Assembly (NCBI GenBank): GCA_022563535.1
Contig: JADFNE010000004.1
Location: 1-64,000 of the forward strand
Reading direction: 5' to 3'
DNA length: 64,000 bases
Source of the DNA: Myxococcales bacterium
Lineage (GTDB): Bacteria > Myxococcota_A > UBA9160 > UBA4427
In this document: positions 42,857 through 60,528 of the stretch, piece by piece
How the letters are laid out: each line of letters starts with the position of its first letter
How positions within the stretch are numbered: position 1 is the first letter of the stretch
Translations under genes and position numbers: made by a program
The notes under the pieces: model-generated
Seen by the model: only the letters and a program-made list of their open reading frames with translations
Database searches by the model: none
What the model was told of the DNA's origin: nothing

Positions 42857-45800
42857 CTAGGCCCCGACCTCGACCTTGGGCCCTTGTGGCCCGTAGAGCT
42901 TCGCTGCGAGAGAGCCGAGCCAGACGGACACCGGATCACTGCCGAGCCGCAGCAACCTGTGGCGCGCGCCCTCGATCAATTGAAGTGTTTCGGACCCCGC
43001 GAGCGGAGCCTCTTGCAGGATCCGAAAGAAGGTGGCTTCAATTTCTGACGCACCCGTTTCCTTCTGCCACTTATTGACCCGCGCGGAAAAGGCTCGATCT
43101 CCGGCGTTCGGCTTCTCGTGTTTGAGCGGGGGGCCGAGCGCGTTCATCGCTGCGAGCACACGTCGACCGCGTTCTCCGTAGGCGAAGCTGCCGAGTTCTT
43201 TGGGGGAAATCGGCGCGCCGATCGTGTAGTCCTGCGCACCGTGAGCGATCGGAAATTCGAGTTTGCCCACAGCCGGCTGTACCGACAGGCCGCCCGAAAT
43301 GCGGATGGGCACGATGGGAATCTCGAGTTCGAGTGCGAGATCGAGAAACAGCGAACTGATCTTCGTCACGGGTTCCCGACAACTCTGGCTTCGAGTGCCC
43401 TGGGGATGCACGAAGAACGCGCGGCGACCGGCGGCGAGATCGGGCTTTAGATTCGCGAGAATTTCGAACATCGAATCCGGCTTCGATTGATCGAAGTAGA
43501 GAATCGACTTCGGATCTCGGGCACCTGGATACGTCGCAAGCATTTTCAGGATCCAACCGATCCAGCCCTGTTCGTGTTTCGCGTTCGCCATCGTGACGAC
43601 TTGAGTTCCGGTGAGGGCCGAGAGCATGTTGGTGACGAGCAACGACTCGATCTGCACCTGATGATTGCCAACGAATATTGCGCCCCTGCCCCCGAGCGAT
43701 GCAAATGCGTCGGGGTCTTCGACTACGACCCGACCCACGTAGCGCTGGATCAAGCCCTCCCAAAGATCCTGTCCCAACCATTGAGAATCGATTCCCAGCA
43801 ACGGGTTCCAGAAACGGTGCAGCCGTTCGAGCGCAAGCGACCGGCTGTTTCGATCGAAGCCCGTCTCGTCCCGCACCACAAAATCCTGACCGTCCCGATA
43901 GACTTCGATCGCGAGCCTGTTCAGGGGCAACGCATCGGGCAGATCCCCCGGATGCAATCGTTCGCGCAGAGCGAGATGCTCCTTGATGGCGATCGTCTCT
44001 ACGTCTTTACTGCGATAGATCCCCTCGATGGTCCCGGGCATCCAATCGCTGGCCAGGACTTCGGCTTCGCAGAGTCGCGTCTCGCCATTTCTGCGTCGGG
44101 AAAGCGACACCCCCTCGACGAATTCACGATCGCGAAGGAAGCTGCGACGATCCAGCGGAGTAGCGGACCCCAATGCACCCTTTGGAAAACAAGCTTCCAC
44201 GAGCGAGAGTTCTGCGAAGACGCCCTGGTCGCCGATTAATTGAATTTTAAAGCGGGGCAAATCTGGTTTTGCGAGATAGCCGTCAAAGCGGATCTCACAC
44301 CGGACCTCTCCCCGGTTGGGAATTTCGCCGTACAGGGTGAGTGCAGTAATCCGGGCCGGATAGGCGACCTTGTCCTTCGCAATCTCCGGCGCCCACAGGT
44401 GCAGTTGATCGTGGGGGATACCGTGCAGTGCCGCATCGAGAAGCGCAGGGTGCAACAAACCGATCGGCACACTTCCCGCGCTGGCATCCAGGACCAGTGA
44501 GGCGCCGTGATCGGTGATCTCGCCGCGCTTCATCAACTGGAAGGCAGGTCCGTGGAACAAGTTTCCGGAAAGGTAGGGATCAGAAATCTCCCTTCCCTCT
44601 TCGGCGTTCAGCGCCGGGGGTGCAGGCTTTCGATCTCCCGTTTCGACTCTTGCCGACGCGACCTCGATTCCTTCGCTCGAATCGAGTGCATCTCCCGAGT
44701 CCGCGTAGAGTTGCACGAAGTATGAGTTGGCAGATCGTGGTTCGACTTCGGTCCACAAACGCCGCGGGCCATCGAAGTCCACCCAACCCTTGAGCTGAAC
44801 GTCGTGCAGTGCAACGACCTGTCCCGGAACCGCGCAGGCCAGTTGATCTGCAATACACATCATCGGCAGGGCCGGACGATTCCAGGTCGGACAGTGGTCG
44901 GCAAGCCAGAGATCGACCGCGGGGTCGAGAATCACCTCGGAACTTTTGGATTTGCGACCGCGGGATGGCGGCGCTCCCGAGACGATGCGCATTCCCATTC
45001 CATCGGCTGAATAGATTCGAATGCCGTCGCACCACAGTGATGCGCTTGCAATCGCGAACGGGCCGTTCTCGTCTCGTCCGACTTCGGTCACATCCAACGT
45101 GACTTGAACCGTGTTGTTCAGCGGCACCACCTGTCCGCGGTACTTCCAGGTCATCGGCCGACCCAGCGCGATGGGCTCGAACCGGGGCGCGTCGATGCCT
45201 TCGCCCATACCGCTCTCCAACATGAAAAACTGCAAGGTCTGGATCATGGCCTCGATCCCGAGCGACCCCGGCTGCACCGGATCCTGAAAGAAGTGCGCCT
45301 TGAAGTACCAGTCCTCCGCGTCGATGCTCCGCTCCGCTCGCACCCGGCCGAGGCTCTCGGCACCGCCTTCGGGCCAATAGCCCGTCACCCGATCGAGGGT
45401 GCGCAGTCTTGCGCCGCCCAACCTGAGACTACCGGCGAAGTAGCGATCGGGTTCACCCGTGAGGTCGAGATTGAAGTCACTCGCCTCACTCAGAAGTGCG
45501 CGTTGCTCGTCGCTGGTGGGCTGACCGATTTGATTTTCGAGCGACAGCGCCTCGGGGGGGAAGAAGCCGAACACGGTGTCCATGACATAGACACGCCGCT
45601 CGCCCTGCTCTCCCGACAGGAAACACTCGACGTCGAAGCTCACGACGATCATACCGGCGGCCTTGGAGATGTTCTTGAGGGTGACCGCAGTCCGCAGGGT
45701 ACCGGCATCTTCAAATAATTCGGCCTCGAGTGTGGCGGTACCGTCCAGGTTGCGAAAGCAGACTTCGTCGTCGACGGTGAGGGCCGAACCGATATAGCTC

Positions 45801-48800
45801 GCGAGCCAGCCGCAGGGTTGCAGGGCGGCCTCGAGGATCACGCAGTACGGCAGCGTTCGAGCACCGTTTTCATTCAGATACCAGGCGTCGGGCGGTATGT
45901 CGTATTCGATCTCGACGGTCGAGCCGACCTCCATCGCCCCGATTTCTCCGCTGATCTTCGTGGCGCGAGATACGAACAAGTACGGTGGACCCGGGAGTCG
46001 CGGCACGCGACCCGGTGCATCGAAGCGCGTATACATCGGCCCAAACGCGTCGGAAGGCTTGCCCCAGGCACACGCGAGCATCGATTTTTGATCAAAGGCA
46101 AAACGCCCGCCGTCTTTTGTCGGGACACTGGCGACTGGTTTCGATTCAACGAGGCTGGCCAGCAGCTCTTTGCGATTCGAAAGCGGCCAGTCGGGAACCA
46201 GCGAAAGGCCCGTGCGCCGGGCGTGAAATGCCTTGCGTCCGTCCACGGTACAGAGCAAGTCGGCGTAGAGGGTGGGAACCGGGCCGTCGATCACTTCTTC
46301 GACGAATACTTCGTAGACGACGTGCTTTGATTGCGGCGTCACCTGACCGCGGCAACGCATCTGGATCGACTCTCCGATCACCGGTTGGAAGCGCCAGGAG
46401 TCTCGCTCGAGGGTGAAGCCCAGCGCGGCGAGATAGAACGACATCGCCTGCAGGCAGCCTTCGAACATCAGGGTTCCCGGCATGCAGGGATCGTTCTTGA
46501 AATGTCCGTCGAAGAACCAGTCGTCCGGATGCACCGGGGCTTCGGCGCGCAGGTAGCCACGCCCCCATGGCCCACCCGTCGGATCGAATTCACTCACCTC
46601 GTCGAGAAAGAGCATCTTGCCGCTCTGGATCGCCGGGCTTTCGGTGTGCGTGCGACTGTGTTCGAAGCCGTCTCCAAAGCACTCCCATGTCCGGCCTTCG
46701 GCAAACGCCCGAAGCTGAGCGCGATCAAAACTCGATTGCGTACACGCAACCGCGGGTGGGTCGAGCCGGGGATTCTTCGTCGGCTCGGCCTCTTCGGCAG
46801 ACCACAAGATTCCCTCGGAGTTGGCGAGTTCTTCATCGCTGAAGAAACCCGCTTGCCCACCCTTGATGCTGATCCGCGGCACCCCATCGATCAGGCATTG
46901 GTAGTGAAAGAAGAACAACCGAATGTCGTCTTGCCGCGCGTGACCATCAACGTGGATCTCATAGCAGAGGGTGTCACCCGGCTGCGGAAGATCACCTTCG
47001 TAGGTGAGTTCACAACCGAGCAGCCGATACACCCGCTCCCCCTGATTGAGGAAGTCGGCACCCATGTACGAGATCAACATCAGGTCCGCCTGCCCGGACT
47101 CGATCATGATGCCGGCGGGCATGCGTCCTCGATTGAGATACCAGGAATCGTCGAGCACGTCGGTCTCGGTCCACATGATCCCGGCACCGTGCTCACCCGG
47201 CTTGGCGTCGATTCCCGTAACACGATCTGCCAGCAAAAGCGGAGGCTCGGGCATTCGTACCTGGCGCGCGAAGCCGTCTTGCTGTTCGAACATCGGACCG
47301 TAAATCTCGGAGATGCGACCCGATGCGTGAATCTCGACTTGAGCACGATCGAGGGTGGGGCCAATCGGATGCTGGATAACCTGGTTCGACACTGGGTCGG
47401 GCTCATCTAGCTTGCTGGGTACTGGCTTGGTTACTGGCTTGGGTGCAGCCACGACCGCAGGTCTGGGATGCGAGCTGGGCGCGGTGACTTTAGTCTGCAC
47501 GATGGGCGCGGGCGCGGAAACGATCGGTTGAACAACCGGGGCCAGAACGGTTCCACCGGTGCTCAATACTTCGGCGGTCGGCCGCAGGTTCTGGCGCAAC
47601 GCAAGAAAGCGTTGATGCATTTGTGCCTGTTGGCTGACGAATTGCTGATGAACCCGGGACAACTGTTCCACATGCTGTTGCCAGACATCCACCGCGGGAC
47701 CGGCGGAGCCAGTGGGGGCACTGATGGCCGCCGCCGCGGGAACCTCGATGGGTAGCGGTATCTCGGTTTGGATCGCGGCGGGCACGACCCAGTCCTCATC
47801 CATGATCGAGGGAAGTGCCGGCGCAGGCTGCATGATCTCTACTCCATCGGAATGTTTGCTCCGGGTCGGAAAACGGACAGCTTCTCGATGTCCGGGTAGT
47901 CGCAGGTGCGGTGTCTTGCGTTGCTGATCTGTTGCAGAGAGTTGTGGCGACGTGTCGCGCACTACCGGGTTCAGCCGCTCCAGCAACCGCGAAGGATCCA
48001 CCGGAACGCCGGCGGCGATCAACGCTGCGATCGCCTCGAAGATGGTCTCGATTCCCCGTCCCTTTCGGTCGAGGGCGACCACGACCGCCTGCTGGTTTCG
48101 CTCGCCCAACAAGTCGCGAATCCAACCCGAGCACGCGCTCATCGGGCCGTGCTCGATAAAAACCCGCACACCATCCGCCCACGCGCGTTCGATGACCTGC
48201 GAAAAGTCGAGGGTGCGATGAGCCTGGTTCATGATCGTCTGGGTGCAGGCCTCGGTTTCGGGGGTGTAGGCCGCGTCGCTGCCGCCGGAATAAAACCGCA
48301 CGCCGGGGACCGGGGTGACTTCGCGTCGATGAATATCGAGCCACGCATCGCGGAACTCGTCGACTTCGGGGACGTGCGCGGCCATGTTGTAGTCGAGCTT
48401 GTGGCAGCGCCCGTTTCCAAGTTCTTCGCTTACCCGTTGAACGATCCGCTGACATGCATCGGCGTCACCTGCGATCACGCAATCATTTTTGGTGTGGATG
48501 ATTGCGAGGTGGAGACGCTCCTCGCTGGCAATCCACTCGCGCACCCGGGCGACCGGTGCCAGGAGTCCCCACACGGCCCAACGAACTTCTTCGAGTTGCC
48601 CGTCTGCAGCCCCCCACACCCGAGCGATCGCATCGAAGGGACCGGCCAGTTCGTTGGTGTAGAGCCCGCTCTCGTCGATCTCCCGGCGCATCGCGTCCAT
48701 GTCGGTCCAGGCCCCGAGCGCAAAGAGTGAGTTGCTCTCTCCCGACGAGTATCCAATCGCCGCATCGGGTTCAATTTCGAGCAGACCCCGGGTCAACTCC

Positions 48801-51736
48801 GCGTGCATCTGGCTGAGACACGAAGCACCCCAGAGCCGTTGATCGTTTGTGGCCGCGGCGTCTTTCCCCTCGAACACCCAGCTCATTGCCTCCGCGAGTC
48901 CGTCGAAGCGACGTCCGAGCCGATCGCCCAACTCGGGCAACGCCGCCAGCAGTTCTTCGCCCATGCCGTGGTATGCCGAACCGGCGGAGGTAAAGACGAA
49001 TGCGAGATCACCGCGGACCGGCTCGGCGCGATAGTGAACGCCCTCGCCCGGCGGAGCACCATCGATAATATGTGCGCGCGCCCGCTGGATCCTTTGCTTT
49101 AGCGTCTCGTCGTCCCCCGCGACCAGAACCAATCGCGCGGGCAATGCCGTGCTCGAAGAATCGCTTGCAGGTGTCGAGGTTCTCCCCTCGTCAAGCGCCG
49201 CCAACACGCTACTTGCGTCGCGACCTTCGTAAATATGTAACATCATCGAGCTGCGCTCAGAACGAGGCGGCGATTCAACGTGTTCCGCGAGACTCCAAAT
49301 CGACTCAACGCCCTCTGCGCCGCTCATCGCCGCAACGGCCAGGCGCGCGGTTCTCCTACCGGACGAAAGCCAAGGCCTGCCATCCGGGCGTCTGCGGTGA
49401 TGAAGAGACAGGGCCGCGGCGGTCAGATGCAAAAGTCCCGAGGCCGCGTGCGCGTGTCCCCAACGATCGTCGAGAGATCCGATTTCGCTCTGGGGACCAA
49501 AGTTCAGTACCCGGTCGTCGGTCGTTACTTCTCTGTCTCCGTCGATTACAGCGTAGATCCGATCGCCGTCGCGCTCAGCATCTTCGAGACGCTTGATCAC
49601 CAATGCGACTGCGGCATCTCCGGGAATCTCGCATCCCGATCCCGAAGACAGACACTCGCGAGCGGCCGCGACATGAACAGGCTCGCACGACATGTCTACC
49701 GCTCCGACCAGCGCGGCATCGAGTTCGTGCTCGCGCAGAGCACGCAGCGCAACCCTTAGCGCTTCGAGTCCGGAGCGTTCTTCCAACGAGATCGTGCAGC
49801 TCGGTCCGGCGAGGTCCAGTTGACGGTTGAGCCGGTTCGCCACGATGTTCGGCATGCTGCCGATGACCCCGGCGGATTCGAGCACATCGACCACGCCATC
49901 GCGCGCGTTTCCCAACCAATCCTCTTCGGCTTGACTCTCCAGGTCGATCCCCAAAGCCACGGCCCACTCTGCGAGTCGCCAGCGTGCGCCGTAACGCGCG
50001 ACCTCCGGATCGGTCCCCATGCCGACATAGACGCCGGTTCGCTCCCTGGGCAGAGCAGCGACTTCGGCCGCCGCCTGGCATCCGGCGTCCAACATCAGAA
50101 GCTGCTGTGGAAGTGTCTGTCGCAGATCGTTGGGCGGGATTCCGAGCGCCGCGATATCGACATCGAAGACCTCGATGCGCCCCTCGAGTTTTCCACTCGC
50201 GTCGGGCTTCACACAACTCGCTCCCCCGAGCAAAGCATCGCTGAAGGCAGCGCGATCGGGACAACCAGACGCCACGACCCCAACGCCCACAATCGCGACG
50301 GGCACGAGCTTGTCGCCGACCACAAATTTTGCCAACTGAGGATCCGCCGGAACGGCGTTGGCAATGGATCGCTCTGGATCAAATTGTTCGACAATCAAGT
50401 GTGCGTTGTTGCCACCAAAGCCGAAGGCCGAGATCCCGGCGCGCCTCACCCCGTCCGATACAAAGCCGGGCACTTGCCAGGGTTCCGCTTTTTCGAGAAT
50501 GCGAAAAGAGGATCCGTCGATCGCATCGATCGGGTCGTCGGCGTGAAGTGTCGGCGGACGAACGGAGGCGCGCATGCCCTCCAGTACTTTGATCAGACCG
50601 GCGACACCTGCCGCGGTGATGAGATGTCCCATGTTCGATTTGAGCGAGCCGATCCCGACAGGCTCCGGCAGGGTTCCGAAAACATCGCCGAGGCTTTCGA
50701 TTTCCGTTGCATCGCCGATCGCGGTACCGGTTGCGTGGCACTCGAGCAGCGAAATATCCCGGGGCGACACGCCGCTCACTTCGTAGGCCGCGCGAATGGC
50801 GCGCACCTGGCCTTCTCGCGCGGGAACCAATGCGCCCTGACCGCGGCCGTCGTTCGAGAGCCCCACCCCGCGGATCACACCCAGGATCTCATCTCCGTCG
50901 CGACGCGCATCTGCTAGCCGTCGCAGCGCAACGAACGCCGCTCCCTCGGCCGGCATCAAGCCGTCGGCTTCGCGATGGAAGGGGCGGCTCCGCCCGCTCT
51001 TGCTGAGCGCCGAGAGCGCCGAGAACCCGACGTGGATGAAGAGATCGTCCGCACAATTGACTGCACCCGCGAGCATGACATCGGCCCGATCGTCGTGGAG
51101 CCAGTCACACGCATACTTGATCGCATAGAGCGAACTCGCGCAGGCGGCGTCGAGGGCAAAGGCGCCGGCTTTGAGCTCGAGCGCGCGTTCGAGAATCAGC
51201 GCCGGCAACCCCGAAGTAAATCGATTGCGCGGATCGGGTCGTGGCTCGGTCGCCGAAAGGTCTGAGTCGGCTCTCCAGATCGATTCGGCGTAGCGCGACA
51301 TCGACGCGGAAGGAAAGGACAAGTTGCCGAAGATGGCGCCAACTCGCGTGCCACTCGCTGCGTGCCCCGCATCTCGCAATGCTTCGCGCGCAGTGTGGAG
51401 CACCCACTGAAAGAGTGGATCCAGGCTCGTCACATCTTCTGCTTCGATCGCGAACCCGGTCGGATCAAAGCACTGCTCGAACCCCTTCACATAGCCACCG
51501 CGATCGGTGGAGGTGCGATCGACCGTGGAGGACCCAGCCGCGAGCACTCGTTCGGTCGCAATCCCCCACCGACCGGCCGGCACCGGACCGAGAACGTCCT
51601 TCCCCGCCAGAACCAGTTCCCAGAGTTCTTTGGGATTCAGCGCGCCCGGCAGCACGCAGGCACGTCCAACGATCGCGATCGGTTCGAAAGAGGGATTCGC
51701 AGGTCGAGAAGATGAAGGGGGTGATGATGACGACAA
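42857..51736 (-). CDS. pfa3: PUFA synthase subunit Pfa3 (KS-CLF-AT-DH-DH-DH'-AGPAT)
   Basis: 2959 residues. KS has Cys199 in LDAACASSLYA plus His motifs ECHATGT and NMGHLITAAG. The second KS-like domain is a chain length factor: where DTACSSS is expected it has SLEERSG, so the Cys is Glu653. AT: Ser997 in GYSSGES. Then a Gln/His-rich helix and Pro/Val linker. Two FabA-like double-hotdog dehydratases: His1745 (DGHFKNDPCMPGTLM) and His2148 (KAHFFQDPVQPGSL). A PKS-type DH-like fold follows (NLFHGPAFQLM, HPALLDAALHG), then at about 2550-2630 a degenerate AcpS-like stretch. The end is an AGPAT domain: NHQVQIE with His2692 (NHx4E) and HPQGTRS in place of FPEGTRS. The only N-terminal start is TTG, one codon after the in-frame TAG of pfa2. 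It likely elongates, dehydrates and transfers the finished PUFA to a glycerolipid. Confidence 0.9.
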   Translation of the reverse strand: MSSSSPPSSSRPANPSFEPIAIVGRACVLPGALNPKELWELVLAGKDVLGPVPAGRWGIATERVLAAGSSTVDRTSTDRGGYVKGFEQCFDPTGFAIEAEDVTSLDPLFQWVLHTAREALRDAGHAASGTRVGAIFGNLSFPSASMSRYAESIWRADSDLSATEPRPDPRNRFTSGLPALILERALELKAGAFALDAACASSLYAIKYACDWLHDDRADVMLAGAVNCADDLFIHVGFSALSALSKSGRSRPFHREADGLMPAEGAAFVALRRLADARRDGDEILGVIRGVGLSNDGRGQGALVPAREGQVRAIRAAYEVSGVSPRDISLLECHATGTAIGDATEIESLGDVFGTLPEPVGIGSLKSNMGHLITAAGVAGLIKVLEGMRASVRPPTLHADDPIDAIDGSSFRILEKAEPWQVPGFVSDGVRRAGISAFGFGGNNAHLIVEQFDPERSIANAVPADPQLAKFVVGDKLVPVAIVGVGVVASGCPDRAAFSDALLGGASCVKPDASGKLEGRIEVFDVDIAALGIPPNDLRQTLPQQLLMLDAGCQAAAEVAALPRERTGVYVGMGTDPEVARYGARWRLAEWAVALGIDLESQAEEDWLGNARDGVVDVLESAGVIGSMPNIVANRLNRQLDLAGPSCTISLEERSGLEALRVALRALREHELDAALVGAVDMSCEPVHVAAARECLSSGSGCEIPGDAAVALVIKRLEDAERDGDRIYAVIDGDREVTTDDRVLNFGPQSEIGSLDDRWGHAHAASGLLHLTAAALSLHHRRRPDGRPWLSSGRRTARLAVAAMSGAEGVESIWSLAEHVESPPRSERSSMMLHIYEGRDASSVLAALDEGRTSTPASDSSSTALPARLVLVAGDDETLKQRIQRARAHIIDGAPPGEGVHYRAEPVRGDLAFVFTSAGSAYHGMGEELLAALPELGDRLGRRFDGLAEAMSWVFEGKDAAATNDQRLWGASCLSQMHAELTRGLLEIEPDAAIGYSSGESNSLFALGAWTDMDAMRREIDESGLYTNELAGPFDAIARVWGAADGQLEEVRWAVWGLLAPVARVREWIASEERLHLAIIHTKNDCVIAGDADACQRIVQRVSEELGNGRCHKLDYNMAAHVPEVDEFRDAWLDIHRREVTPVPGVRFYSGGSDAAYTPETEACTQTIMNQAHRTLDFSQVIERAWADGVRVFIEHGPMSACSGWIRDLLGERNQQAVVVALDRKGRGIETIFEAIAALIAAGVPVDPSRLLERLNPVVRDTSPQLSATDQQRKTPHLRLPGHREAVRFPTRSKHSDGVEIMQPAPALPSIMDEDWVVPAAIQTEIPLPIEVPAAAAISAPTGSAGPAVDVWQQHVEQLSRVHQQFVSQQAQMHQRFLALRQNLRPTAEVLSTGGTVLAPVVQPIVSAPAPIVQTKVTAPSSHPRPAVVAAPKPVTKPVPSKLDEPDPVSNQVIQHPIGPTLDRAQVEIHASGRISEIYGPMFEQQDGFARQVRMPEPPLLLADRVTGIDAKPGEHGAGIMWTETDVLDDSWYLNRGRMPAGIMIESGQADLMLISYMGADFLNQGERVYRLLGCELTYEGDLPQPGDTLCYEIHVDGHARQDDIRLFFFHYQCLIDGVPRISIKGGQAGFFSDEELANSEGILWSAEEAEPTKNPRLDPPAVACTQSSFDRAQLRAFAEGRTWECFGDGFEHSRTHTESPAIQSGKMLFLDEVSEFDPTGGPWGRGYLRAEAPVHPDDWFFDGHFKNDPCMPGTLMFEGCLQAMSFYLAALGFTLERDSWRFQPVIGESIQMRCRGQVTPQSKHVVYEVFVEEVIDGPVPTLYADLLCTVDGRKAFHARRTGLSLVPDWPLSNRKELLASLVESKPVASVPTKDGGRFAFDQKSMLACAWGKPSDAFGPMYTRFDAPGRVPRLPGPPYLFVSRATKISGEIGAMEVGSTVEIEYDIPPDAWYLNENGARTLPYCVILEAALQPCGWLASYIGSALTVDDEVCFRNLDGTATLEAELFEDAGTLRTAVTLKNISKAAGMIVVSFDVECFLSGEQGERRVYVMDTVFGFFPPEALSLENQIGQPTSDEQRALLSEASDFNLDLTGEPDRYFAGSLRLGGARLRTLDRVTGYWPEGGAESLGRVRAERSIDAEDWYFKAHFFQDPVQPGSLGIEAMIQTLQFFMLESGMGEGIDAPRFEPIALGRPMTWKYRGQVVPLNNTVQVTLDVTEVGRDENGPFAIASASLWCDGIRIYSADGMGMRIVSGAPPSRGRKSKSSEVILDPAVDLWLADHCPTWNRPALPMMCIADQLACAVPGQVVALHDVQLKGWVDFDGPRRLWTEVEPRSANSYFVQLYADSGDALDSSEGIEVASARVETGDRKPAPPALNAEEGREISDPYLSGNLFHGPAFQLMKRGEITDHGASLVLDASAGSVPIGLLHPALLDAALHGIPHDQLHLWAPEIAKDKVAYPARITALTLYGEIPNRGEVRCEIRFDGYLAKPDLPRFKIQLIGDQGVFAELSLVEACFPKGALGSATPLDRRSFLRDREFVEGVSLSRRRNGETRLCEAEVLASDWMPGTIEGIYRSKDVETIAIKEHLALRERLHPGDLPDALPLNRLAIEVYRDGQDFVVRDETGFDRNSRSLALERLHRFWNPLLGIDSQWLGQDLWEGLIQRYVGRVVVEDPDAFASLGGRGAIFVGNHQVQIESLLVTNMLSALTGTQVVTMANAKHEQGWIGWILKMLATYPGARDPKSILYFDQSKPDSMFEILANLKPDLAAGRRAFFVHPQGTRSQSCREPVTKISSLFLDLALELEIPIVPIRISGGLSVQPAVGKLEFPIAHGAQDYTIGAPISPKELGSFAYGERGRRVLAAMNALGPPLKHEKPNAGDRAFSARVNKWQKETGASEIEATFFRILQEAPLAGSETLQLIEGARHRLLRLGSDPVSVWLGSLAAKLYGPQGPKVEVGA

Positions 51737-51739
51737 TCG

Positions 51740-54700
51740 CTACGCCTGTTCCTGGCTGGGCAGTAGATGCGTTTCCACGCCAATGAACTCCGCGAGCAGG
51801 TTGCCACTGGCATCGTGAAACACCAGATCCGAAACGCTCTTGCTCCCGACAGCACTCCGGCCCGTGAGCGTGCAGCGGATCGGTTCGCTTGTCGGTGCGT
51901 CTGCCCAGGTTCGAATCTCGTTGATTCCCGTCGGGAGCGATGCACCTCCGAGCACATGCTTGCACCAGAGCAACGCGAGCTGCAGCCCACCGTCGAACGC
52001 GAGCGGGTCCGTGATCCACACCGTCTTGCCCGAGTTGGAACGCTCGTCCGCCCAACTCGATTGCTCTACCCCGGAAAGCTCCGCGACCATGCCGCGCTCC
52101 GAGATGCCAGAGATGTTTTGAATCACCTGGAACGCGGGTCCGTGGAACAAAAGCTCGCCGTCGTAGATTTCGGCCTCGCCCCAACTCCCGAGCGCGAGTT
52201 CCTGTTCGTCGACCACATGGGACTGCGAGGTACCGCGCTCGGTAGCCAGTTCCGCGGTGCACCGGTAGTAGATGCCGCCCTTGCGATCTGCCAATTCCAG
52301 GGCCACCGTGGCTCCACTCCCATTGGTCAATTGTCGGGCGTGCACGACCAAATGCTCGCAACCTCCAGCGAACTCTCGCAACGATATTCCGCGCAACACC
52401 TTGAGCTCCGACAAACGCTCGAGCACCAACTCGGGACCAAATGCCTTCGCGCAGCGCGAGAACCATTCGATCACCATCGCGATCGGAACGACCGGCGTGC
52501 CCTTGATCGCATGATCCGCGAGATAGGGATGGGTCTCGTCCCCGACGACTACGCTCAGGGAAAACGACCGCCCTTGCAATTCGGGATCCGACAATGCGGC
52601 GAGTGCTTCGGCCTTGGGTTCGCCCCCTAGTACCAACTCGATCTGCTCGGGAGCGCTGCCCGCCACCTCGTCGACCAACATCTTGGCACCGACGCCGAGC
52701 GGGATCAGCGGCACACCCATCGATTCAAAGTGCGCCTTCAACTGCGGGCTCACCATTCCGCCTTCCCATGGGCCCCAACCGAGAGACTTCACCAGACAAG
52801 CACCGTTGCGACGCCTGAATTCCGCAACCGCGACCTTGTTCAGCACTTCGTTCGCCATCGCGTAGTCGACCTGGCCCACGTTTCCACAGCGCGCCGCTAC
52901 CGAAGAGAAGAAGCACAACAACGCGATTGGATCGTCGGCCGTGGCGGCCAGCAGCGTGCGCAGCCCTTCGACCTTCGTATCGAAGACGCGATCGAATTGA
53001 TCACCGGTCTTCTCGGTGATCCGCTTGTCTGCGATCACTCCGGCGCCGTGCACGATTGCGGCAATGTCTCCCCAGTCGGCGCGGACCTCGGTCAGTGCCG
53101 CTGAGACCGATTCGAGACTCGTTACATCTACCGCCATGTATCGCGCCTGCGAGCCCGCTTTCTCGATCTGCGAAACCGTGTCCCGCACCTCGCGACTCGC
53201 AAGTATTGAGCCGACCTGCTTGCCGAGTGCGACCGGTGTCAGTTTTTCTCCGAGCGAAACCGCATGTGCGAGCAGCGCGCGTTTGAGCGCCGCGTCTCCC
53301 TCGACGCCGTGGCAACACGGCGGATCTTCTGCGAGTTCCGTGCGTCCGAGCAGCACGAAGCGGAGTGCCGCTTCGCTCGCCAATCCGATCAACGTGGTTG
53401 CGGTGACGCCACGCGCGCCACCCGAGGCCACCACAACATCTCCATCGCCCAGTACAGGGGTCCCGCGAACGACTTCGACGGGCTGGCTTCGCAGCACAAC
53501 GCGTCTGCCCGACGCACTGAGTCCCACATCGAGATCGGGGCCACCCAAAACGAGTTCGTCCGCGATCGCGCTGGCGAGTTGTTCACCACTGCGTCCCGCG
53601 CGTTCGAGGTCGATCGCCTTGACCGAAACTCCCGGCCACTCCTGGGCGACGGTACGTGCCAACCCTGCACATCCGGCGAGCCAGGCCCGCGCTGGTGCGA
53701 AGTCCCCTGTTCCAAAGTTTCCACCCGTATCCTGCAGCGTGACGAACACGCCCTCGCCGGATGCCTTCGCTTCGAATCGCTCTGCTACCGCACGGGCGAC
53801 TTCGAAGGCTTCGCGATTGACGCGCGTCGCAGCGAGATCGTCCGAGACTTCGCGCAAGCCGCCAAGAAAGACCACACCGCGAAGATCGCCCGCCGGAATT
53901 TGCGTCACCGCGACAGCGGACACGCCCCGGGTTTCCAGGGCTTCGGCTACCTGTTGCGCAAGCCCTGTCCCCTCGTCGGTGACAATGATTTGCCCTTCCC
54001 CGAAGAGACCATTTTGTGCCATCCCAATCGCCGGCTGCTCGACGGCTGCGAGCACATAGCGACCGAGGCCTGCGCCCACTGGAGGGTCGTCGGCATCACT
54101 GGCCGCTTCGTCGGCCGCGGAAGCGCGGTTCGGGCTCGTGCTAGTTTCGCGTCCCAACTGCCCGTTCAGGTATTCGACCACCTGGCCCAGGGTCGCGAGC
54201 TTGGCCATTACCGCGGTATCGACTTCCGGCAGACCCGGCGCCAGATCGTTCATCGCGGAGAGAATCTCTACTCGCTTGATCGAATCGATCCCGAGGTCAG
54301 CCTCGAGTTCCATTTCCATGTTCAACATCTCCGGCGGATAACCGGTCTTGTCCGACACCACTTCGAGCAACAACGCGTGCAGATCGACTCCGCCACGATT
54401 GGCTTCTGGCTGAACCGCGGGCGGCTCGACCTCCGGTGCCGCCACCGGAGCAACGGCCGGGGGGACGGACTGGACGACCGGCGGCGTCACGAACGCAGGA
54501 GCGGTCGGCATGGGTTGAGCAACAGCGATTGCCGGTTGCACCACGGGTGCCGCCGCAATCGGTGAAGAGAGCGGCGCAGCAATCGGTGCCTGAATTGGCT
54601 GCACAACCGGTGCCGCGGTTGCCGCGGGTTGCAATCCGGCCTGCACCGAAAACGATTGGAAGCTGCGTTCGATCGTATCCAGATAGGCGGTATGGGTCTG

Positions 54701-57700
54701 GGCCATCGCCTGCATGTACGCCGCATGAGCTTCTGCGGTGTGACGTTGAGCTTCCTGATAAGCCTGCGCCCAACCGGGTGACGCCGCGGCGGGAGCCGGG
54801 GCAGTGCTTTGTGTGATCTGTCCAGCAATTGTTGGAGCAACAACTGTCGGATCAACAATTGTCGGATCAACAACAGCTGGCGCCGCAGTCTGTGCGGTAG
54901 CGCGGTCGGATTCGCTGCGAGGTACTTCGACGTACACGGTCTCGATCTCCTTTTCTTTGCGGGGCGGGTTCGGCCCAGGTAGCGCGGCTGTGCCTCCCTG
55001 GGGCGGATATGGCTTGCCGTAGTTGCTGCCGTTGATCGGAATCTTGAGCTTCGGCTCCGCGCGATCGTGCGGGTTCTCGGTCTCGACGAAGTCCGACCAC
55101 AGTGATGCGTAGTCGAGCGCGTGTCCCTCGACCGACAATCGCGCGATCGCCTCGAAGAAGCTGCGCACTCCGTCCCTGCCCTTGCGATCGAGGTTCACCG
55201 CGGCATGGGGCCGATCCTCGAGAATTCGTCCCACCAGGCCGGTCAACACCGACCCCGGTCCAACCTCGACGAAACTCCGCACACCCGCTGCGTACATGGA
55301 TTCGATCATGTCGACGAACTTCACCGGGCAAGCGAGTTGTTCCGCGAGCTTCGCGCGCAGCGTGTTCGGGTTCGGATCGTGGACCGCCCCGGTCGTATTC
55401 GAGTAGACGGGTTTCGCCGGGGCGGAGAACTCGACCTCCGCCAGGTATTCGCCAAACGCTCCGCTCGCCTTCTCCACCACCGGTGAATGAAATGCCGTTG
55501 CGACGGGAAGCCTGCGCGCCGTGATGTTCTGCTCGGCGAGCTTCGCCTCGACGGCCTCGATCTCGTCGGTCTCTCCCGAGAGCACGACTTGTTGGGGAGC
55601 ATTGTGATTCGCAATCACGACTCGGCTGTCCCAGCCCGCGAGCAGGTCGCGGATCTCTTCGATCGGCTTGGACACCGCGGTCATCGCGCCCGGGGTCACC
55701 GCAGCCTGGGCCATCAACTCGCCACGCCGACGGGCGACCGCGAGGAAATCCTTCTCGCTGAGAACGCCCGCGGCGTGCAGCGCCGTGACCTCGCCGAAGC
55801 TATGCCCCGCGAAACAATCCGCTTGCAGACCCAAACCGTCTAGCAGACGCAAGAGCGAAAGACTGGTGCAACCGATCGCGGGTTGCGCCCACTCGGTCGC
55901 GGACAGGGTGCTGGCCTGACTGGCCTTTTCCTCGTCTTCGAACGCAGTACGGGGGAACACCACGTGATGAAGGCGCGTCGTCCCGTCCCATTTGAAGTCC
56001 GCCGCGCGATCCCAGGGCTCGATCGCGCTGGCGAAGTGCATCGCGACCGACGCGCCCATGTGCAGGTACTGACTGCCCTGCCCGGAAAAGAGATACGCGA
56101 GATCTCCAACGCTACTGCCCTGACCGGTGCCGTAGTAAATCCCGGTCGGGGTCGAAAACGATTGGGCAGGTGCGCTGTCGATGCTCGTCGCGGCCTGCTC
56201 GAGCTTGACAGCCAGGTCGGCTTCGTCGTTGGCGACCACGGCCAGACGCACCGGCGCCGCCGGGTCGAACTGAAGTTGGCTAGTGCGCGCCAGCCATTGT
56301 AGATACCCGGACTTCGAACTCTCGCTGGCACGCGAGCGTGCTTCTGCGACCAAAGCGTCGGGGCTTCCTCCGGAGAGTGTCACCAGCTCGGAGCCGAGAG
56401 CCCGCAAGCGCTTCGCAGGTCGCGACGCGACGCCGTCCTTGGGTGTGTACTCGGTCATGGCAATATGAAAGTTCGATCCACCAAAGCCGAACGAACTCAC
56501 CGACGCGCGCCGGGGGTGACTCGAGTCGCGCACCCAGGGTCTTGTCTGCGTCGAGAGATGGAACGGAGACTGTTCGATTTCGAGCAACGGGTTGGGCCGC
56601 TCCACCTTGATCGTCGGCGGCAAGACCTTGTGGTGCAGTGCCATCACGGCTTTGAAGAGTCCCGCGGCTGCCGAGGCCGCCTTGGTGTGGCCGATCTGCG
56701 ACTTCACGGAACCAATCGCACACCACTGCATGTCTTCCCGGCCCGATTCGCTAAACGCGGTCGTGAGCCCCTTGAACTCCGCGGCGTCCCCCGCCTTGGT
56801 ACCGGTCCCGTGTGCTTCGACGAGTTCCACCTGCTCCGGGCCGAAGTCCGTCTGTGCGTAGGTGCGGCGCAGCGCTCTGGCCTGTCCCTCTGGAAGCGGC
56901 GCGTAGACACTCTTGGCCCGGCCATCCGACGACGAACCCACGGCGTTGATGACAGCGTAAATTCGATCTCCATCGCGCTCCGCATCTTCGAGACGTTTGA
57001 GCGCCACCATCCCGAGCCCCTCACCGAGCATGGTGCCGTCGGCCTGATCCGAGAAGGGGCGGCAGTCGCCAGTCGGGGACAGAGCCGGCGTTTTGCTGAA
57101 GCACATGAACATGAAAATGTCGTTCATCGCGTCGACGCCACCGGTGATGACCATGTCCGAATCGCCGAGATAAAGTTCGTTGACTGCCATCGAGAGTGCC
57201 GAAAACGTCGAGGCACACGCGGCATCCGTCACGCAATTGGTACCGCCGAGATCAAGTCGGTTTGCGATGCGGCCAGCAACCACATTACCCAGCAGCCCGG
57301 GAAACGTGCTTTCGCGCCAGGGCGTGTACTGATCGGAGATGCGATCGCAGACCGCTTGCACCTCTGCTTCGGGCAGGCCGCTGTCGCGCAGCGCTTTCAC
57401 CCAAACCGGGCGCTGGAGCCTGCTCACCATCGAACCCAACAACTCCTGGCCCGAGGTCACGCCCAGGATCACCGAGATATTCGAACGATCGAGCTTTTTG
57501 AGGGCTTCACTCGACTGATTGCACGCATCTTCGAGAACGCGCTGGGCGACGATCAATGCGAGCAGTTGCGCGGTATCGGTTTCGGGGACGAGGTTTGGGG
57601 GCACGCCCCAGCCGAGGGAATCGAAGTCGATGTCCTTCAGAAACGCGCCGCGCTTCGCATAGGTCTTGTCCGGCACCGAGGGGTCGGGGTCGTAGTAGTC

Positions 57701-57856
57701 GTCGATCAACCAATGGGATGGCGGGACATCGGTGATCAGATCGCTTCCCTCGAGAATATCCTTCCAGAAGCCGGTGGCGTCGAGCGAACCCGGAAACAGG
57801 GCACTGACGCCAACCACGGCGATGGGCAGACGGGACGATTGATTCGATTTGGACAT
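51740..57856 (-). CDS. pfa2: PUFA synthase subunit Pfa2 (KS-MAT-ACP-KR-DH)
   Basis: 2038 residues from ATG 57856 (MSKSNQSSRLPIAVVG); the longer frame overlapping pfaD is rejected. KS: Cys214 in TDAACASTFSAL, with EAHGTGT and GHTKAASAAAG. MAT: Ser686 in GHSFGEVTA. A long Ala/Pro/Val/Gln linker with a coiled segment follows. ACP: one copy only, phosphopantetheine Ser1192 in LGIDSIKRVEIL; I find no second copy of this motif. KR: VVVASGGARGVTATT near 1475 with Tyr in GQVDYAMANE. C-terminal PKS-type DH: HPYLADHAIKGTPVVP near 1778 and LLFHGPAFQVIQ. It loads malonyl units and performs condensation and ketoreduction. It ends in TAG, which is in frame with pfa3. Marine PfaA has five to nine ACPs, so the single ACP is unusual. 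Confidence 0.9.
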   Translation of the reverse strand: MSKSNQSSRLPIAVVGVSALFPGSLDATGFWKDILEGSDLITDVPPSHWLIDDYYDPDPSVPDKTYAKRGAFLKDIDFDSLGWGVPPNLVPETDTAQLLALIVAQRVLEDACNQSSEALKKLDRSNISVILGVTSGQELLGSMVSRLQRPVWVKALRDSGLPEAEVQAVCDRISDQYTPWRESTFPGLLGNVVAGRIANRLDLGGTNCVTDAACASTFSALSMAVNELYLGDSDMVITGGVDAMNDIFMFMCFSKTPALSPTGDCRPFSDQADGTMLGEGLGMVALKRLEDAERDGDRIYAVINAVGSSSDGRAKSVYAPLPEGQARALRRTYAQTDFGPEQVELVEAHGTGTKAGDAAEFKGLTTAFSESGREDMQWCAIGSVKSQIGHTKAASAAAGLFKAVMALHHKVLPPTIKVERPNPLLEIEQSPFHLSTQTRPWVRDSSHPRRASVSSFGFGGSNFHIAMTEYTPKDGVASRPAKRLRALGSELVTLSGGSPDALVAEARSRASESSKSGYLQWLARTSQLQFDPAAPVRLAVVANDEADLAVKLEQAATSIDSAPAQSFSTPTGIYYGTGQGSSVGDLAYLFSGQGSQYLHMGASVAMHFASAIEPWDRAADFKWDGTTRLHHVVFPRTAFEDEEKASQASTLSATEWAQPAIGCTSLSLLRLLDGLGLQADCFAGHSFGEVTALHAAGVLSEKDFLAVARRRGELMAQAAVTPGAMTAVSKPIEEIRDLLAGWDSRVVIANHNAPQQVVLSGETDEIEAVEAKLAEQNITARRLPVATAFHSPVVEKASGAFGEYLAEVEFSAPAKPVYSNTTGAVHDPNPNTLRAKLAEQLACPVKFVDMIESMYAAGVRSFVEVGPGSVLTGLVGRILEDRPHAAVNLDRKGRDGVRSFFEAIARLSVEGHALDYASLWSDFVETENPHDRAEPKLKIPINGSNYGKPYPPQGGTAALPGPNPPRKEKEIETVYVEVPRSESDRATAQTAAPAVVDPTIVDPTVVAPTIAGQITQSTAPAPAAASPGWAQAYQEAQRHTAEAHAAYMQAMAQTHTAYLDTIERSFQSFSVQAGLQPAATAAPVVQPIQAPIAAPLSSPIAAAPVVQPAIAVAQPMPTAPAFVTPPVVQSVPPAVAPVAAPEVEPPAVQPEANRGGVDLHALLLEVVSDKTGYPPEMLNMEMELEADLGIDSIKRVEILSAMNDLAPGLPEVDTAVMAKLATLGQVVEYLNGQLGRETSTSPNRASAADEAASDADDPPVGAGLGRYVLAAVEQPAIGMAQNGLFGEGQIIVTDEGTGLAQQVAEALETRGVSAVAVTQIPAGDLRGVVFLGGLREVSDDLAATRVNREAFEVARAVAERFEAKASGEGVFVTLQDTGGNFGTGDFAPARAWLAGCAGLARTVAQEWPGVSVKAIDLERAGRSGEQLASAIADELVLGGPDLDVGLSASGRRVVLRSQPVEVVRGTPVLGDGDVVVASGGARGVTATTLIGLASEAALRFVLLGRTELAEDPPCCHGVEGDAALKRALLAHAVSLGEKLTPVALGKQVGSILASREVRDTVSQIEKAGSQARYMAVDVTSLESVSAALTEVRADWGDIAAIVHGAGVIADKRITEKTGDQFDRVFDTKVEGLRTLLAATADDPIALLCFFSSVAARCGNVGQVDYAMANEVLNKVAVAEFRRRNGACLVKSLGWGPWEGGMVSPQLKAHFESMGVPLIPLGVGAKMLVDEVAGSAPEQIELVLGGEPKAEALAALSDPELQGRSFSLSVVVGDETHPYLADHAIKGTPVVPIAMVIEWFSRCAKAFGPELVLERLSELKVLRGISLREFAGGCEHLVVHARQLTNGSGATVALELADRKGGIYYRCTAELATERGTSQSHVVDEQELALGSWGEAEIYDGELLFHGPAFQVIQNISGISERGMVAELSGVEQSSWADERSNSGKTVWITDPLAFDGGLQLALLWCKHVLGGASLPTGINEIRTWADAPTSEPIRCTLTGRSAVGSKSVSDLVFHDASGNLLAEFIGVETHLLPSQEQA
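54826..54870 (-). repeat. Three 15-bp tandem units in the pfa2 linker
   Basis: CAATTGTTGGAGCAA, CAACTGTCGGATCAA and CAATTGTCGGATCAA stand head to tail, each five codons long. In the pfa2 frame they encode the pseudo-repeat VVDPTIVDPTVVAPT in the flexible linker between MAT and ACP. The in-frame unit length allows slippage to change linker length without breaking the gene. Confidence 0.8.
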
Positions 57857-57923
57857 CTCTTGTTTTACCCCTTGGTTCGAACGATTCGAAAATCGAATTG
57901 GATCCAGCTTCGATGATTTCAAT

Positions 57924-59558
57924 TCAACTGAGCGGACGAGGCCTGAAGTCAAACGCCGCCGGTGGGACGGGAACGCCAAAGCTGCGCAGCTGTTGAGCAC
58001 GCGTCAGTACTGCCGCGCCTTCGAGCAGGTTGCGCGCAACCTGAACGACGTTGCGGTTCTCCGGCTCGGCGAGAAAGCTCCCGGCGCTCCACGCATTGAA
58101 CGCGCCCATCGCCGGGCCGCACCAGATCTGATAGTCCGGGCGGCGATCGCGAATTCCTGCGATGGCCCAGCGGCTCGACTGGCCGAGATAAGAGCGAAAC
58201 ACGAGGGCCATTTTGTGTTTTGGGTCGGCTTCCGCTTTGTCGATTTCGCGGGGATCTCGCTCTTGCCAAAATTTCCGGGTATCGCGCCACGCGTCCGCGA
58301 GAGAAGTGCGCAGAATGTCCTTTTCGAGCTTCGCCGTCTCATCCGCCGGTAGCGCATCGAGGGATTCGAAACCGCGATACAACTCCAAGAGCTTCCTGGC
58401 GCGCACGCCGAAGAACGTGCCCCGCTTGAGCACCTGAACTTCAACGCCCAACTCGAACATGTCCGCAGCCGGGGCCATCATGATGTCGGCGAGGCCCGCC
58501 TGGGCGAGCATCTGCTTGCCGTCCGCATCGAGTCCACTCTCGACGCAGGCCTGGTTGACCGAGCCGGTCAAGACGTACGATGCACCCAGGGCAAACGCCG
58601 CCGCGACGGCACCCGGCGTCCCGATCCCGCCGGCAGCACCCACCCGAATTGGACGCCGATAACCCCGCGCGCTGGCGATTTCGTTGCGCAGACCGAGAAT
58701 CGTCGGAAGCAGTGCACTCAGCGGTCGGTTGTCGGTGTGACCTCCCGAGTCAGACTCCACAGTGAAGTCCTCCGCAACCGGAAGCTGGCGCGCAAGCTGG
58801 CCTTCCTCAGCCGTGAGCTTGCCAGCTGCAACGAGCGCATCGACCATCTCTGCAGGCGCGGTCTCGAGGAAGTGGCGCGCGACCTCGGGTCGAGAAATCT
58901 TGGCAAACACATAGTTGCGACGCGTGATGCGACCGGCGGAATCTGTGCCCAGCCCCGTGTATGCGTAGCGAACGACGTGCGGAGTCAGTCCCATGTAGGC
59001 AGCGGCGGAAACCCGGCGCACACCGCGACGGATGTAGAGGTCTGCGATCCGCTCTTCGATCGCGGGTTCGTTGGGGGAATGGATGAGGTTTGCCCCCCAG
59101 CTGAGTCCACCGTTGTCCGTCGTGCCAAGCGCTTGTTCGAGTTCGTCGAGGGCCTGCTCGACCGTTGCGGGCCCGAGGCCGGCCGCGCCAAAGAAACCGA
59201 GAAACCCTGCCCGGGACATCGCGATGACCAGGCGCGTAGTCGCGATGCCATTGGCCATCGCCCCCGAGACATAGGGAAAGCGAACCCCGTGGATCTCGCA
59301 GAAAGATCGATCGCCCAACCATTCGGGGTATATAGAAGGAAGCATCCCCAGCACTGGCCAGCTGGGCGTCCCAGCCGGCAGTTGAGTGCCAGCGGGGGAG
59401 AACTGTCCGCCCTGGGCGATCCCCAGGGCGCCGGTCGTTGGATCCTGCACGACGTATGCCGCGCTGCGAACTTGGGCTGCAAGCGCCAGTAACTCTGCCT
59501 GTTTGAACGCCGGGGTCGCTCCATTGCCCCCACCCGTCCAGACCCCGATCGCTTCCAT
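57924..59558 (-). CDS. pfaD: PUFA synthase enoyl reductase Pfa1/PfaD (nitronate monooxygenase-like fold)
   Basis: 544 residues, similar throughout to PfaD. Conserved blocks are GVRFPYVSGAMANGIATTRL, NLIHSPNEPAIEER, ESDSGGHTDNRPLSALLPTI (FMN-binding and catalytic region near 300) and GAAGGIGTPGAVAAAF. QACVESGLDADGKQ and KMALVFRSYLGQSSRW complete the match. It reduces enoyl-ACP intermediates using FMN. I chose ATG 59558, with GGGAG about 5 bases upstream, over the TTG at 59630. It is the first gene of the operon; pfa2 starts 67 bases after its stop. In myxobacteria the ER gene is likewise first (pfa1), whereas marine clusters place pfaD last. An FMN enoyl reductase acting on this synthase is a family-based inference. 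Confidence 0.93.
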   Translation of the reverse strand: MEAIGVWTGGGNGATPAFKQAELLALAAQVRSAAYVVQDPTTGALGIAQGGQFSPAGTQLPAGTPSWPVLGMLPSIYPEWLGDRSFCEIHGVRFPYVSGAMANGIATTRLVIAMSRAGFLGFFGAAGLGPATVEQALDELEQALGTTDNGGLSWGANLIHSPNEPAIEERIADLYIRRGVRRVSAAAYMGLTPHVVRYAYTGLGTDSAGRITRRNYVFAKISRPEVARHFLETAPAEMVDALVAAGKLTAEEGQLARQLPVAEDFTVESDSGGHTDNRPLSALLPTILGLRNEIASARGYRRPIRVGAAGGIGTPGAVAAAFALGASYVLTGSVNQACVESGLDADGKQMLAQAGLADIMMAPAADMFELGVEVQVLKRGTFFGVRARKLLELYRGFESLDALPADETAKLEKDILRTSLADAWRDTRKFWQERDPREIDKAEADPKHKMALVFRSYLGQSSRWAIAGIRDRRPDYQIWCGPAMGAFNAWSAGSFLAEPENRNVVQVARNLLEGAAVLTRAQQLRSFGVPVPPAAFDFRPRPLS

Positions 59559-59702
59559 GTCACTCCCTTGCACAAATATCTGCGCAGCGTCTTGTGCTGT
59601 GTCTTCACGCAATTCAACCGTCGTGCTCAATCACGACAGCAAGTGTCAATTCGTACTGTGGGGAATGGGGGGGCGGCGATTCCCAGATCCATGCAGATTT
59701 TA

Positions 59703-59850: not shown

Positions 59851-59901
59851 ATATTTTTTCGGGAAATCCCCTAGAAAACGGGAAGCCCGGGTCCAACATT
59901 C

Positions 59902-60528
59902 ATGCCCAGCCGCGCCGAACAGAAACAAGCCACCCGTCGCTCAATCATCGAAGCCTCGCTCGCGCTGAGCGCCGACCGCGGCTTTTCGAGCTTGAGCTTG
60001 CGCGGCGTCGCGAAAGAAGCGGGGATCGCGCCGACTTCCTTCTACCGACACTTCGCGAACATGGACGAACTCGGACTCGCCCTGGTTGACGAGGTGGGGA
60101 TGTCGCTGCGTCAACTCGTCCGCGAGGCGCGCCGCAAAGTCGACCACAGTGGCAAGGGCAGCGTGATCCGGGCCTCGATTCAGACCTTTCTGAGCTTTGT
60201 CGAGAAGAACGAGAATCTGTTTCGGATGTTGCTCGGCGAAGGCTCGGGGTCTCCGCCGCACTTTCGTCGGGCGATCGCGAAAGAGATCGAACGCTTCACC
60301 CAGGACCTGGCGGAAGATTTGATTCGTGAAGCCGACGCGACCGGGCGGCCGATCGCCTACGTCCATCATGCGGCAGAAGCGATGGTCACCGTTGCGTTCA
60401 ACCTCGGGGCCAGCTCGATCGATCTTCCCCGCGATCAACGGCTCGCTGTGATTGAACGGATCATTATCGAAGTGCGAATCATCATGCGGGGCGCCCAGGC
60501 AGAGGCAGGATCCCTCAATCGGAACTAG
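59902..60528 (+). CDS. fabR: TetR-family repressor of the FabR type
   Basis: 208 residues. The N-terminal HTH reads RAEQKQATRRSIIEASLALS then GVAKEAGIAPTSFYRHFANM, almost the same as E. coli FabR (REVAREAGIAPTSFYRHF). The core LALVDEVGMSLRQLVREAR, GKGSVIRASIQTFLSFVEKN and FRMLLGEGSGSPPHFRRAI also follow FabR throughout. FabR is a TetR repressor that senses the balance of unsaturated and saturated acyl thioesters and controls fabA/fabB. Here its gene is divergent from a PUFA synthase operon, with FabR-like operators between them. So it most likely adjusts PUFA synthesis to membrane acyl composition. It converges, 3 bases apart, on the methyltransferase gene. Confidence 0.88.
   Translation: MPSRAEQKQATRRSIIEASLALSADRGFSSLSLRGVAKEAGIAPTSFYRHFANMDELGLALVDEVGMSLRQLVREARRKVDHSGKGSVIRASIQTFLSFVEKNENLFRMLLGEGSGSPPHFRRAIAKEIERFTQDLAEDLIREADATGRPIAYVHHAAEAMVTVAFNLGASSIDLPRDQRLAVIERIIIEVRIIMRGAQAEAGSLNRN

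Follow-up and report, generated by a model that had tools for sequence, protein, structure and literature searches.

A type-L pfa cluster encoding one acyl carrier protein domain in a Myxococcales genome

The pfa cluster and its ACP domain

The window analysed here, a stretch of 64,000 nucleotides from a Myxococcales bacterium, carries a three-gene pfa1-pfa2-pfa3 cluster on the minus strand (59630-42857). The first gene, pfa1 (57924..59630, minus strand), encodes a homologue of the enoyl reductase PfaD (TIGR02814, 616 bits against a cut-off of 449). It is followed by pfa2 (51740..58000, minus strand), which encodes a PfaA homologue of 2086 amino acids that was identified by Pfam and that passes the curated cut-off of the NCBIfam model TIGR02813 (1374.9 versus 1010.1 bits), and by pfa3 (42857..51736, minus strand), encoding a PfaC homologue that lacks an ACP. 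Pfa2 contains a KS (residues 59-578), a MAT (636-929), a single PP-binding ACP domain (1206-1276), a KR (1524-1746) and a DH domain (1816-2085), and thus displays the KS-MAT-ACP-KR(-DH) order of the PfaA/Pfa2 family. Sequence inspection revealed intact catalytic motifs in the KS (Cys and His), the MAT (GHSxG), the KR and the DH domains.

In Pfa3, Pfam detected a KS, a KS-like (CLF) match, an AT, two FabA-like regions, a PS-DH and an acyltransferase (AGPAT), corresponding to the arrangement KS-CLF-AT-DH/FabA-DH/FabA-PS-DH-AGPAT; the same domain set is found in the relatives G054, G289 and others. The AGPAT domain (PF01553, residues 2670-2814) has homologues in relatives. Its motif at residue 2691 reads NHQxxxE instead of the usual NHxxxxD, and the glutamate is also present in those relatives in which the motif is readable. 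A TetR-family gene (59899..60525, plus strand) lies divergent from pfa1 and is a candidate regulator of the cluster; an 86%-identical ORF adjoins the pfa cluster of G054, so that the gene is kept beside both clusters. Further along this contig of the window genome (G000:C4, approximately 76.4-83 kb), beyond the window, lies another large type I PKS ORF, of 2202 amino acids, with an ACP of its own.

The sole ACP domain of Pfa2 covers 54173..54385 on the minus strand and was recognised by Pfam PF00550 and by a custom ACP profile of 71 positions. A preliminary description of this DNA had placed it at 54180-54430, a range that covers the ACP and also takes in some upstream linker. The phosphopantetheine-attachment serine is encoded at 54281..54283 (minus strand) within LGIDSIKRVEIL, and the motif GGNATHGAYWSNATH occurs only once, at 54292-54278 on the minus strand. 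This serine is residue 1240 when translation is counted from the upstream GTG and residue 1192 when it begins at an internal ATG (MSKSNQ...), the start for which the earlier numbering, Ser1192, is correct.

Several searches bear out the earlier observation of one ACP across the three proteins. Besides the motif count, a Pfam search placed its single PP-binding match in Pfa2 (P0001 residues 1210-1278, 26.2 bits), leaving Pfa1 and Pfa3 without one, and across the whole genome PF00550 gave six matches, one of which lies in the pfa cluster (54167-54373). In addition, the family-built ACP profile, run at full sensitivity against all six-frame ORFs of the window, returned one match at 112.7 bits, with the runner-up at 3 bits. 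A hidden or degenerate second ACP was considered for the Pfa2 linker and for Pfa3, and none was found at full HMM sensitivity. Exact repeats within the pfa2 DNA do not exceed 15 nt, so that no relic of a second ACP copy is visible.

Upstream of the ACP lies a conserved, helix-like linker segment (54650..54772, minus strand; WAQAYQEAQRHTAEAHAAYMQ..., WAQAYQEAQ...IERSFQSF), which is not an ACP and is similar in multi-ACP relatives. A segment resembling it, WQQHVEQLSRVHQQFVSQQ..., occurs at residues ~1420-1460 of Pfa3. These helix-like segments of Pfa2 and Pfa3 are possibly a docking or dimer element.

Classification and ACP number among relatives

The window cluster combines the type-L gene order pfa1(ER)-pfa2-pfa3 with a fused KS-CLF-AT-DH Pfa3, an AGPAT at the Pfa3 C-terminus and a PPTase at a separate locus, all of which are type-L traits. 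Two PPTases are encoded in the genome, on contigs C51 and C11 and thus neither of them in the window; the C51 enzyme is HetI-like, with a score below the cut-off of the HetI model. The type-L systems of Aetherobacter and Minicystis rosea share with the window the ER-first Pfa1-Pfa2-Pfa3 order, the KS-MAT-ACP-KR-DH and KS-CLF-AT-DH-DH-AGPAT arrangements and a PPTase encoded elsewhere, and the extra PS-DH before the AGPAT in the window Pfa3 resembles DH4 of M. rosea (PMC6731297, PMC8436480). The contrast between the one ACP of the window and myxobacterial type L is drawn here on the multi-ACP relatives that we counted. By architecture and phylogeny, the predicted synthase belongs with the type-L, AGPAT-bearing pfa clusters.

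Marine PfaA proteins (types A and B; Shewanella, Moritella) share the TIGR02813 family and the A-subunit domain order with the window, and their systems are not known to contain an AGPAT. Marine type A clusters differ from the window by 4-6 tandem ACPs and by separate pfaB and pfaC genes (PMC3098273). For marine PfaA, published ACP numbers range from 2-9 (PMC3585217), which is wider than the five to nine given in the preliminary description. Actinobacterial pfa-like clusters (Streptomyces, Kribbella, Rhodococcus rhodnii) resemble the window in having one ACP in a KS-MAT-ACP-KR-DH protein, but they form a separate clade with 41-46% identity over the ACP-KR-DH part, and an AGPAT match was not found in these loci.

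Multiple tandem ACPs have been named a "distinguishing characteristic" of PfaA/Pfa2 (PMC3098273), and the window has one ACP. Nevertheless, the 2011 survey of pfa types kept single-ACP clusters if their architecture and KS phylogeny fitted (PMC3098273); lacking tandem ACPs alone therefore does not exclude membership. With single-ACP pfa-like clusters admitted as early as 2011, the window cluster is a low-ACP form of a known system and not a new kind. Tandem ACPs, the premise of the preliminary description, are indeed the usual hallmark, but as a universal rule this is too strong.

The comparison of ACP number covered 80 named homologous loci plus 60 further stretches taken from genomes within the phylum of the window organism. 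The phylum yielded 33 full-span Pfa2 genes, a count that takes in G054 and leaves out the window; five of them have one ACP, ten have two, nine have three, three have four, five have five and one has seven. The named loci include 19 full-span genes with one ACP, 18 of which are from Actinomycetota. The other single-ACP cases of the phylum with an AGPAT-bearing Pfa3 are G346, G184, G343 and G217, and no AT domain was found in Pfa3 of the latter two. A KR-DH tree of 127 rows requires no fewer than 12 switches between single and multiple ACPs, and members of the same genus can be unlike in ACP number (one in G343 versus two in G277; two in G137 versus five in G260). Thus, one ACP is a minority state that has been reached repeatedly, with the caveat that every single-ACP gene counted comes from a draft assembly, and ACP number in the Pfa2 family is evolutionarily labile. 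In records that are finished or consist of one or two contigs, the six homologues have two to five ACPs (G160 five, G231 three, G359 three, L117 two, L137 three, Embleya two); no single-ACP homologue is among them, but the sample is too small to decide. Likewise, no finished single-ACP record was found among plasmids, where the sole match, Embleya NZ_CP108785, has two ACPs, and no relatives were found in viral contigs. Two divergent KS-MAT-ACP-KR proteins from the family of the window organism, L010 (G017) and L011 (G011), show 37% identity and have one ACP motif each.

The close form of Pfa2 is found in the class only in the window genome (G000), G005 and G054 among 91 genomes, plus the distant G009. 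This patchy spread over two families would therefore reflect horizontal transfer or repeated loss. The close relatives, whose ACP number the preliminary description had proposed to compare, are divided. G054, a separate genome that belongs to a different family within the order, encodes a full-length Pfa2 of 2085 amino acids that is collinear with the window protein and has one ACP; the two are 78% identical in the N-terminal 1121 amino acids and 74% identical in the ACP-KR-DH part. The G054 cluster also shares the three-gene order and the similar TetR neighbour, and it differs from the window by sequence divergence only. The nearest relative, G005 (76%), lies on a contig that starts inside its ACP, and such a start is the typical mark of a tandem array in the Pfa2 family; completing the G005 gene from another contig failed, as the assembly lacks both pfa1 and the N-terminal half of Pfa2. 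L058, the next relative after G005, has at least two ACPs. Counting it as single-ACP was rejected, because the profile finds one ACP but the first residues are the tail of an earlier, near-identical copy. G289 on a neighbouring branch has three ACPs, and the window Pfa2 falls in a supported clade that contains multi-ACP synthases of the same architecture. The ancestor of this small clade probably had more than one ACP, and the window lineage has probably reached one ACP by losing copies.

Natural single ACP or assembly collapse

The predicted synthase is a complete enzyme set of the type-L, myxobacterial style, and the single ACP of its Pfa2 is likely genuine. Among the options raised in the preliminary description, a natural single ACP is the best supported, because the full-length orthologue of G054 is alike and single-ACP homologues recur.

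Collapse during assembly, which the preliminary description had also considered, appears unlikely, although ACP arrays break the assemblies of relatives and the contig of the nearest relative starts inside an ACP. Pfa2 would in that case contain at least two near-identical ACPs, and the assembler would have bridged the upstream and downstream linkers through one copy. Of 26 contigs cut off within Pfa2, 21 have their start inside an ACP or at most 100 residues upstream of one, whereas approximately 25% would be expected if contig ends were otherwise spread evenly along the gene (p = 2.7e-9). The at least two copies in L058 point in the same direction, as do ACP copies sharing exact runs of 150-272 nt in some drafts (G291, G260, L075, L088, L089). 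However, near-identical copies usually break the contig, and several drafts show two copies instead of one, even where copies are identical over at least 200 nt (G291, L075, L088). Both G000 and G054 would have had to collapse to one copy and yet remain contiguous, on contigs of 131 kb and 53 kb, respectively. Furthermore, the array copies of G160, G231 and G359, the phylum's one- or two-contig genomes, are exactly identical over no more than 56-95 nt at a stretch, which large-k assemblers normally resolve and do not collapse. In our judgement, a natural single ACP is therefore favoured over collapse. In the drafts of the actinobacterial homologues L075, L088 and L089, the DNA of the two ACPs is 97-100% identical, and the true copy number may be higher.

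Function of a one-ACP synthase

The serine of the Pfa2 ACP would be armed by a PPTase from another locus; we infer this to be the C51 enzyme. The lone ACP would then ferry the growing chain among the KS-MAT, KR and DH domains of Pfa2, the KS-CLF and the DH/isomerases of Pfa3 and the ER Pfa1, before the AGPAT domain would release it onto lysophosphatidate; this direct route has been suggested for the synthases of myxobacteria (PMC6731297). Because one tether would take the place of several, each synthase would have fewer chains in progress and hence a lower output, whereas the KS-CLF, DH and AT domains would continue to determine chain length and unsaturation. In Shewanella japonica, PUFA output fell but did not cease when five of the six ACPs of PfaA were inactivated, according to the account of Jiang et al. 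2008 given in PMC3585217, and changes in ACP number altered yield but not the product profile in constructs with at least four ACPs (PMC5067506). On these grounds, a one-ACP synthase is expected to run at lower flux without a change in the type of product, and by analogy one working ACP suffices chemically for PUFA production.

A related lipid synthase that normally has one ACP and makes another product, such as a hydrocarbon, a glycolipid or a specialised lipid, would be compatible with a real single ACP and is a doubtful reading of the window cluster. Single-ACP homologues of uncharacterised product dominate in Streptomyces and other Actinobacteria (type L of Shulse and Allen), and Pfa-like genes are able to contribute to the formation of specialised lipids (PMC13291983). 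The window Pfa2, however, groups with multi-ACP synthases of its own architecture, the cluster has all of the AGPAT, AT and DH/isomerase domains seen in myxobacterial synthases that produce PUFA, and the published changes in ACP number cited above left the profile unaltered; the different product suggested in the preliminary description is thus without support. That carriers encoded elsewhere replace the missing ACPs in trans is very improbable: the genome has other ACP genes, but an ACP-specific search of it found no second ACP of the PUFA type (LGIDSIKR), and the remaining ACPs either resemble that of the FAS or are part of another PKS.

On balance, we lean towards a naturally single-ACP, AGPAT-fused PUFA synthase that is common to at least two lineages of the order and that would provide useful PUFA levels without a tandem array. 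Tandem ACPs are considered a hallmark of PUFA synthases and also the lever for their yield. A complete one-ACP synthase of the myxobacterial type beside close multi-ACP relatives would offer a natural comparison of array size and, if truly single, a naturally minimal system in which to ask why ACP arrays exist. Perhaps more useful is the lesson that ACP counts from draft genomes are unreliable for the Pfa2 family, because contigs break at the ACP array.
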